This document shows, one piece after another, positions 60,722 through 60,875 of a stretch of 64,000 nt of DNA. A program made the position numbers and the translations under genes. How positions within the stretch are numbered: the stretch's first letter is position 1; the number at the start of each line of letters is the position of its first letter. Under the pieces are notes generated by a model. It did no database searches, had not been told where the DNA came from, and saw only the letters and a program-made list of their open reading frames with translations. The stretch comes from Rhizobium sp. CCGE531 (GTDB lineage: Bacteria > Pseudomonadota > Alphaproteobacteria > Rhizobiales > Rhizobiaceae), in the NCBI RefSeq assembly GCF_003627795.1, contig NZ_CP032684.1, positions 3,966,001-4,030,000 of the forward strand, given 5' to 3'.

Positions 60722-60875
60722 GGGTGCTCCTCCTTGCAACGCGGGCTCGAAGCCCAGCCAACCGTTCGAGCAGAAAGGATGCGACAGAGGCGCTTGCTGA
60801 GGTACGGGTTCAAGACCCAAGGATGACACGCACCTCCGTCACGCCACCCATCTTACACTATCGCCAACGTACAAG
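59784..60875 (-). mobile_element. IS110 family element inserted in a palindromic repeat
   Basis: Read on the minus strand: flank TCACC, core CT (60875-60874), left end TGTACGTTGG, the transposase, right end AACACGGTTG, core CT (59783-59782), flank GAGGTG. Joining the flanks gives TCACC-CT-GAGGTG, which exists uninterrupted at 34585-34597. The ends have no inverted repeats, as expected for IS110. Size about 1.09 kb: 152 non-coding bases upstream of the transposase and none downstream. Confidence 0.87.
60722..60873 (-). ncRNA. Candidate IS110 bridge RNA region
   Basis: This is the non-coding left end, where IS621-type elements encode the bridge RNA. Segments on the RNA strand: UCAUCCU (60826-60820) pairs with the bottom strand of target TCACCCT with one U-G; ACCUCAG (60803-60797) is complementary to target CTGAGGT, 7 of 7; a GGGT-cttga-ACCC hairpin lies between these two; ACGGUUG (60765-60759) equals the right-end sequence next to the core. 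CAAG (60736-60733) complements CTTG at the left end, a weak match. The order target-left, target-right, donor-left is that of known bridge RNAs. Transcript limits are not known. Confidence 0.68.

Follow-up and report, generated by a model that had tools for sequence, protein, structure and literature searches.

Bridge RNAs have been predicted in 85.7% of IS110 elements (PMC11208160), and IS110 elements that insert into REP sequences have been described (PMC1525189), so that the element considered here is not new in kind. In the RNA of IS621, the right donor guide (RDG) has two nucleotides paired, two flipped out, a G–T wobble and four pairs (PMC11208158), and deletion of the 5' stem-loop has been tested by the IS621 authors (PMC11208160, PMC11208158). 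The part of PMC1525189 consulted here assigns ISPpu9 to the IS110 family and covers ISRm19 in Sinorhizobium meliloti, not the present element by name.

The window, the whole 64,000-nt stretch that was analyzed, comprises bases 3966001–4030000 of contig C1 of a 7.14-Mb Rhizobium genome. Judging by sequence comparison, it very probably carries an insertion sequence of the IS110 group whose left end encodes a bridge RNA of the IS621 type. What the analysis shows is the anatomy of the element, a conserved leader fold, guides that co-vary with their sites, and the site-specific placement of the element's copies within this genome.

Element ends and insertion sites

The recombinase scores above the cut-off for Pfam PF01548 and PF02371, and its residues D12, E54, D96, D99, S234 align with D11, E60, D102, D105, S241 of IS621, with an inferred offset of +2 between the PDB chain and the residue numbers of the paper. 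The features of the IS110 group are present, namely, a DEDD RuvC-like N-terminal domain and Transposase_20 with the catalytic serine. Among solved relatives compared by sequence, ISCro4 (9t56) is the best (E = 3.6e-40), and IS621 (8wt6) reaches E = 1e-38. The left end is long and non-coding upstream of the gene, and the right end is short, the gene running into the right core (Table 1).

Table 1. Features of the element and of its target; all guides and the RNA itself are predictions.
Feature	Position in the window	Strand	Basis
Whole element (IS110 recombinase gene and 152-nt leader)	59782–60873 plus core	minus	
Leader at left end, encoding the predicted bridge RNA	60722–60873	minus	fold, alignment, covariance model
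Likely RNA	approx. 60843 to approx. 60722	minus	start predicted from promoter-like pair
Core dinucleotide CT, left	60874–60875	minus	sequence, genomic copies
Left target (LT) TCACC, genomic flank	60876–60880	minus	sequence, copies, relative locus
Right donor (RD) TGTACG	60868–60873	minus	sequence, genomic copies
-10-like TAAGAT, weak	60850–60855	minus	paired with TTGCTT across RE–LE junction
Stem-loop, putatively target-binding	60781–60842	minus	fold and alignments
Left target guide (LTG) UCAUCCU	60820–60826	minus	flank pairing, shuffles
Right target guide (RTG) ACCUCAG	60797–60803	minus	flank pairing, shuffles
Target-loop handshake guide CA	60795–60796	minus	pairing possible with G and T at donor positions 7 and 6
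Left donor guide (LDG) ACGGUUG	60759–60765	minus	leader shuffle test
Right donor guide (RDG) CGUUGCAAG	60733–60741	minus	discontiguous pairing with CTTGTACG, by eye
Donor-loop handshake guide GA	60731–60732	minus	pairing of G possible with C at target position 7
IS110 recombinase, 313 aa	59780–60721	minus	Pfam, IS621 alignment
Left donor (LD) ACGGTTG, at right end	59784–59790	minus	sequence, genomic copies
Core dinucleotide CT, right	59782–59783	minus	sequence, genomic copies
Right target (RT) GAGGTG, genomic flank	59776–59781	minus	sequence, genomic copies
Unoccupied target TCACCCTGAGGTG	34585–34597	plus	sequence, genome pattern search
Target sequence of the element TCATCCTGAGGTG			

Five full copies are present in the genome, namely, that of the window, two identical to it, and two sharing one change; this sole change among the copies turns a target-stem G–C pair into G–U. 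All five are at TCA[C/T]C-CT / CT-GAGGTG, and they represent separate insertions, since their flanks outside the repeat differ. The first-pass annotation suggested checking whether every copy is flanked by TCACC-CT-GAGGTG; the repeat site is indeed common to all five, but only three read TCACC and the other two have TCATC. Thus, the same leader was not encountered in unrelated flanks among these copies. The pattern TCAYCCTGAGGTG occurs unoccupied 13 times in the genome, vs. none for the reversed control pattern; another control, TCAYSATGAGGTG, the repeat variant without the CT core, was dropped, as its three sites were too few for a test. The suggested programming to a rhizobial palindromic repeat agrees with all five copies and with the 13 empty exact sites.

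Relative loci were read in 14 cases, of which seven retain the downstream gene and one, L169 in the relative G370, has the orthologous empty site CCTCAGGATGAGG in the same intergenic space, the element being absent. This empty site places the ends of the element with single-base precision, one CT being common to both. The ends, CT core, LT, RT, LD, and RD proposed earlier are therefore retained after re-reading, in agreement with the five genomic copies and the empty site of G370. As seen from the genomic copies and the relative loci, insertion is site-specific, with no target duplication beyond the core.

A locus of R. calliandrae (L018, the same as L113) was considered as an occupied form of the 34585 site and rejected: both element ends are missing, and it is a remnant of the same element. 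It sits in a repeat array adjoining the orthologue of the empty 34585 site. In the window itself, a further palindromic repeat, CCCTCATGGTGAGGTG, a related form without the CT core, adjoins the element at 60960–61040.

Fold of the leader and its guides

Below, the window's element and its close relatives are referred to as lineage A, and lineage B comprises elements whose protein is about 46–49% identical to the window's recombinase and which also have five copies in this genome. Folded as a single sequence, the leader forms a pair of stem-loops whose internal loops hold the guides, and the energy of this fold does not stand out (z = -0.88; its stability is equalled by 39 of 200 shuffles). Among 15 distinct leaders of lineage A, 99.3% of pair cells are kept; variation here is too low for the pair counts to be informative, and covariation within this lineage alone is matched by 102 of 500 shuffles. 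The 10 distinct leaders of lineage B have seven pairs changed on both sides, which none of 500 shuffles attains; 97.1% of their pair cells are paired, vs. 26–48% when slid. The joint alignment of 19 sequences also yields seven both-side-changed pairs (0 of 500 shuffles), with the reservation that relatedness inflates double-change counts and that most such cells there distinguish lineage A from lineage B. The number of further pair types is not unusual, being reached by 89 of 500 shuffles in lineage B and by 344 of 500 jointly.

A covariance model, R1, was built from these 19 sequences, and it matches the window at 60850–60721 with 120.6 bits, the window's leader being one of the sequences used to build it. 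R1 was run against 26 sources, with 15 of 20 other-group regions used (all except L136, L137, L138, L141, L147) plus L129. It matches 16 out of 16 Rhizobium other-group leaders given (L129, L135, L139, L140, L142–L146, L148–L154), several of them near-identical copies, with E between 5e-8 and 4e-4, and, weakly, three Gluconobacter loci (E = 0.017), probably representing one leader; no other match below E = 0.39 was seen among the 26 sources. On its own genome, with E up to 1 and 150 of 2,682 first-look candidates scored, R1 retrieves exactly the five A and five B leaders; a third lineage is missing from this list, yet its copy L154 is matched in the direct search. Rfam gave 12 matches, all under the gathering scores (best E = 0.17), none of them relevant. 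By the compensatory changes and the R1 matches, a two-loop fold is conserved among homologous leaders; its absence would have counted against the first interpretation.

The three guides UCAUCCU, ACCUCAG, and ACGGUUG, listed in this order by the first-pass annotation, are found so at leader positions 48–54, 71–77, and 109–115. When the leader was dinucleotide-shuffled 20,000 times and G–U pairs were allowed, the single 7-mers appeared in 4,429, 5,665, and 1,840 of the shuffled sequences, respectively, and the ordered triple, in 17. As single 7-mers are common in shuffles and the ordered triple is rare, the match list from one sequence is suggestive, moderately beyond chance and not decisive. 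The RTG can be extended to nine nucleotides, GUACCUCAG, with one more wobble, at four out of five sites of the genome. The LDG pairs with the left donor at seven out of seven positions, leaving the first core base unpaired (G where C is expected).

The RDG, initially described as merely a 4-nt match, was understated, as alignments inspected by eye point to a discontiguous IS621-like pairing. Its bases CG-U-UGCAAG can pair with CTTGTACG via CAAG–CTTG, a G–T wobble, U–A, one U left out, and then G–C and C–G, giving in total eight pairs with one bulge (by eye on the alignment, without a shuffle test). In L109, G replaces one U of the RDG and the same pairs stay possible; L098 and L111, again by eye, fit less well. 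Lineage B, with CTTGTAA as the donor and UU-AG-GCAAG as the guide, follows the IS621 scheme (by eye on alignments). The dinucleotides after the RTG and the RDG occupy the handshake positions of IS621 (scheme of PMC11208158). The first, CA or CG, faces donor TG, and pairing is possible in 19 out of 19 rows. The second, GA, faces the target: pairing of its G with C at position 7 is possible in 18 out of 19 rows (not in L095), and pairing of its A with T at position 6, in 16 out of 19 (not in L095, nor in L001 and L098, which have C there). This A is unpaired at all three TCACC sites of the genome, the window's own among them, and can pair at the TCATC sites.

Promoter-like boxes are seen across the RE–LE junction, all of them counted without a chance control: TTGCTT-17 nt-TATAAT (nine out of 12 consensus bases) in five out of 12 distinct junctions of lineage A, TTGCTT-17-TAAGAT with a weak -10 (seven out of 12) in the window's junction, and TTGACA-17-TAACTT in five out of nine distinct junctions of lineage B; L111 has no such pair. 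If these are promoters, the lineage A transcript would start about at the target stem and lack the 5' stem-loop of IS621 and lineage B. Columns 1–26 of the lineage A alignment contain no consensus pairs; the window's own leader can form a hairpin at positions 3–20 in the single-sequence fold, and a 5' hairpin is predicted for lineage B.

Co-variation of guides and sites and alternative explanations

The search for relatives listed more than 100 matches, from which 60 regions were taken. Pairing of guides with flanks was scored in 39 rows, 21 from lineage A (L001, L004, L095–L112, L114) and 18 from lineage B, 36 of them with both flanks; L002, L003, L005, the remnant L113, L129 (no start), and L134 (contig end) were left out. 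Of the 432 guide positions scored in these 36 insertions, 401 are paired to the flank of the same copy, vs. a shuffled mean of 297.5, and 0 of 20,000 shuffles reach this value, these draws being not independent, because copies with an identical leader count repeatedly. Guides of lineage A score 5.5 out of 12 on B flanks vs. 11.6 on their own, and those of lineage B, 5.5 on A flanks vs. 10.6. Within lineage B, 169 of 192 positions pair, vs. 160.7 after shuffling (13 of 20,000 reach this); within lineage A, the same shuffle is empty (14,053 of 20,000 reach the observed value), since this lineage has essentially one target.

For individual copies of lineage A, the left flank fits at seven out of seven positions in 17 of 21 rows, at six in L111, L112, and L114, and at three in L095, whose left flank, scored in register and one base shorter, is the only poor one in lineage A; the right flank fits at five out of five positions in 18 of the 20 readable rows, and at four in L104 and L112. 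Left flanks of lineage B fit at four or five positions out of seven in L118, L124, L126, L128, and L130–L133, some being shifted by a base and left uncorrected.

A structure-free comparison covered 59 copies (22 of lineage A, 18 of lineage B, and 19 other), with L112, L114, and L149 also left out. An exact 7-nt complement of the core plus RT is found in the leader for 296 of 484 pairs of A leaders with A sites, vs. one of 396 pairs of A leaders with B sites; across groups with different targets, it is nearly absent (1/396, 3/36, otherwise 0), and groups C1, C2, and D have the target CTCATCC in common and likewise the guide. Copies match their own site exactly in 14 out of 22 cases in lineage A (the other eight have one mismatch each, seven of these G–T), 17 out of 18 in lineage B (the remaining flank is masked), 8/11 in group C1, 3/3 in C2, 2/2 in D, 1/1 in E, and 1/2 in F. 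Group E is represented by L154, with RTG GCUAGAG at CTCTAGC; together with copies at C1:63585 and C2:1347328 of the same genome (G000), L154 (C1:556455) forms its third IS110 lineage, of which one out of three copies was read.

The five lineage B copies of this genome (L115–L119, at 47460, 1161318, 2775814, 3381625, and 3743079 of contig C1) have identical leaders and sit in another repeat (CACC / CTCCC), with guides matching. By eye, their left junction is TT or CT and their right junction CT, a pattern that would follow from top-strand cleavage after the core with TT tolerated as a target core. Elsewhere in the lineage, L120 combines the guide GCAUCUU with the site GCATCTT (L121, the second copy of this element, lies at CCACCTT and fits at six out of seven positions), and L128 has GGCAGAG at CTCTGCC, vs. 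GGGAGAG at CTCTCCC in the other B copies with a readable flank. The eight other lineage B proteins compared are 76–93% identical to that of L115. Hence, guides and flanks change together both between lineages and inside lineage B, in line with the original interpretation of a self-consistent guide set.

These observations bear on three alternative explanations. The recombinase itself could read the palindromic repeat, the matches in the leader being a coincidence or captured target sequence; REP targeting has been reported for insertion sequences of the IS3 and IS4 families (PMC1525189), the targets here are palindromic repeats, and single guide 7-mers are common by chance. We regard this as very unlikely, given that guides follow the sites inside lineage B (L120, L121, L128) at the above levels of protein identity, differ with the sites between lineages, and fall in both internal loops of a conserved fold. 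Even less probable is a short processed seekRNA as in ISEc21, with two target matches alone and the donor matches irrelevant. The 74-nt seekRNA of that IS110-type element has a bottom-strand match 5' of a top-strand match, as here (PMC11187229), but the second loop in lineage A contains a perfect 7-nt LDG and the IS621-like discontiguous RDG, and lineage B has corresponding guides for different donor ends. The two notions, seekRNA and bridge RNA, have target recognition in common; what separates them is the name and the function given to the donor loop. The least probable of the three is that the leader acts as an ordinary attenuator or 5' UTR regulating transposase translation, with no guide: for ISPpu9, an insertion sequence residing in REP sequences, regulatory small RNAs and UTR structure have been reported (PMC8450116), yet such a role would leave the co-variation of guides with genomic flanks unexplained; an additional regulatory role of the leader is possible. 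The identification as a bridge RNA, as judged from the aligned leaders and flanks, rests on this natural reprogramming across lineages, and it is the comparison that decides.

Proposed mechanism and comparison with known systems

By analogy with IS621, from which we infer the transcription, binding, and chemistry of the element, the excised circle would join the right and left ends, forming a promoter from which the leader would be transcribed. The RNA would adopt a fold with LTG and RTG in a target loop and LDG and RDG in a donor loop, and, bound to the recombinase, could bring the junction ACGGTTG-CT-TGTACG to the repeat TCAYC-CT-GAGGTG. Cutting after the CT core and strand exchange would then lead to insertion in one orientation.

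The stop codon of the recombinase gene, TGA at 59780–59782 on the minus strand, consists of the core T and the target GA, and the same holds for 20 out of 23 copies of lineage A, the other three (L103, L108, L112) having frame changes or decay. At the circle junction, the frame runs on for 11 codons in the window's copy and for 7 to 38 in the eight copies checked; lineage B elements have their own stop within the element (by eye). Since the gene has no stop of its own and its frame is open in the circle, the circle might make a longer recombinase than the integrated form, the guide RNA thereby also setting the protein end, which we consider a rather doubtful possibility. If true, target choice could be coupled to the protein form, and the RTG could be held to sites starting with GA, AA, or AG. 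Among the papers listed by a full-text literature search, no description of a target-completed stop codon for IS110 was seen, and the term "stop codon" does not appear in the parts of PMC11187229 and PMC11208160 consulted, both of which are weak evidence of absence.

With two lineages of five copies each, different guides, and two repeat targets, a single genome provides a clean natural test of bridge RNA programming, and the one copy read of its third lineage has its own matching guide. The bridge RNA may also be a compact natural one, about 120 nt provided that its start is predicted correctly, with a long RTG and without a conserved 5' stem-loop; it would be useful for asking which parts are needed, and the link between the target site and the stop codon is unusual.

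Among the described systems, ISRm19 from S. meliloti is similar in belonging to the IS110 family and in having four out of four copies in rhizobial REP sequences, a likeness by description rather than by sequence, the source dating from 2006 and the guide RNA papers from 2024 (PMC1525189). The ISCro4 transposase (PDB:9t56), the best-scoring solved protein by sequence, was compared as a protein alone. The seekRNA of ISEc21 also derives from the upstream non-coding region, with target matches to the bottom strand and then to the top strand; it differs in that, according to the part of the source consulted, donor matches do not belong to the seekRNA (PMC11187229). 

IS621 from Escherichia coli differs from the present element in several respects (PMC11208160, PMC11208158, as far as consulted). 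Lineage A lacks a conserved 5' stem-loop (one is predicted in lineage B), the RTG of IS621 has 4 nt vs. 7–9 nt here, longer RTGs being known in other orthologues, its RDG flips out two nucleotides vs. one bulged U, its LDG pairs with the core, to which the LDG here is unpaired, and the transposase stop codon is here completed by the target. On the other hand, both have the CT core, a leader RNA (here predicted) preceding the gene, two internal loops ordered LTG, RTG, LDG, RDG, the same strand polarity of the four guides, a discontiguous RDG with the G–T wobble at the same donor position, the handshake positions, promoter-like boxes split between the right and left circle ends, a REP-like target, and the DEDD and serine residues (PMC11208160, PMC11208158). 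The IS621-like arrangement recognized in the first-pass annotation is right in its main points, the guide order, the two-loop fold, and the co-variation all agreeing with it.
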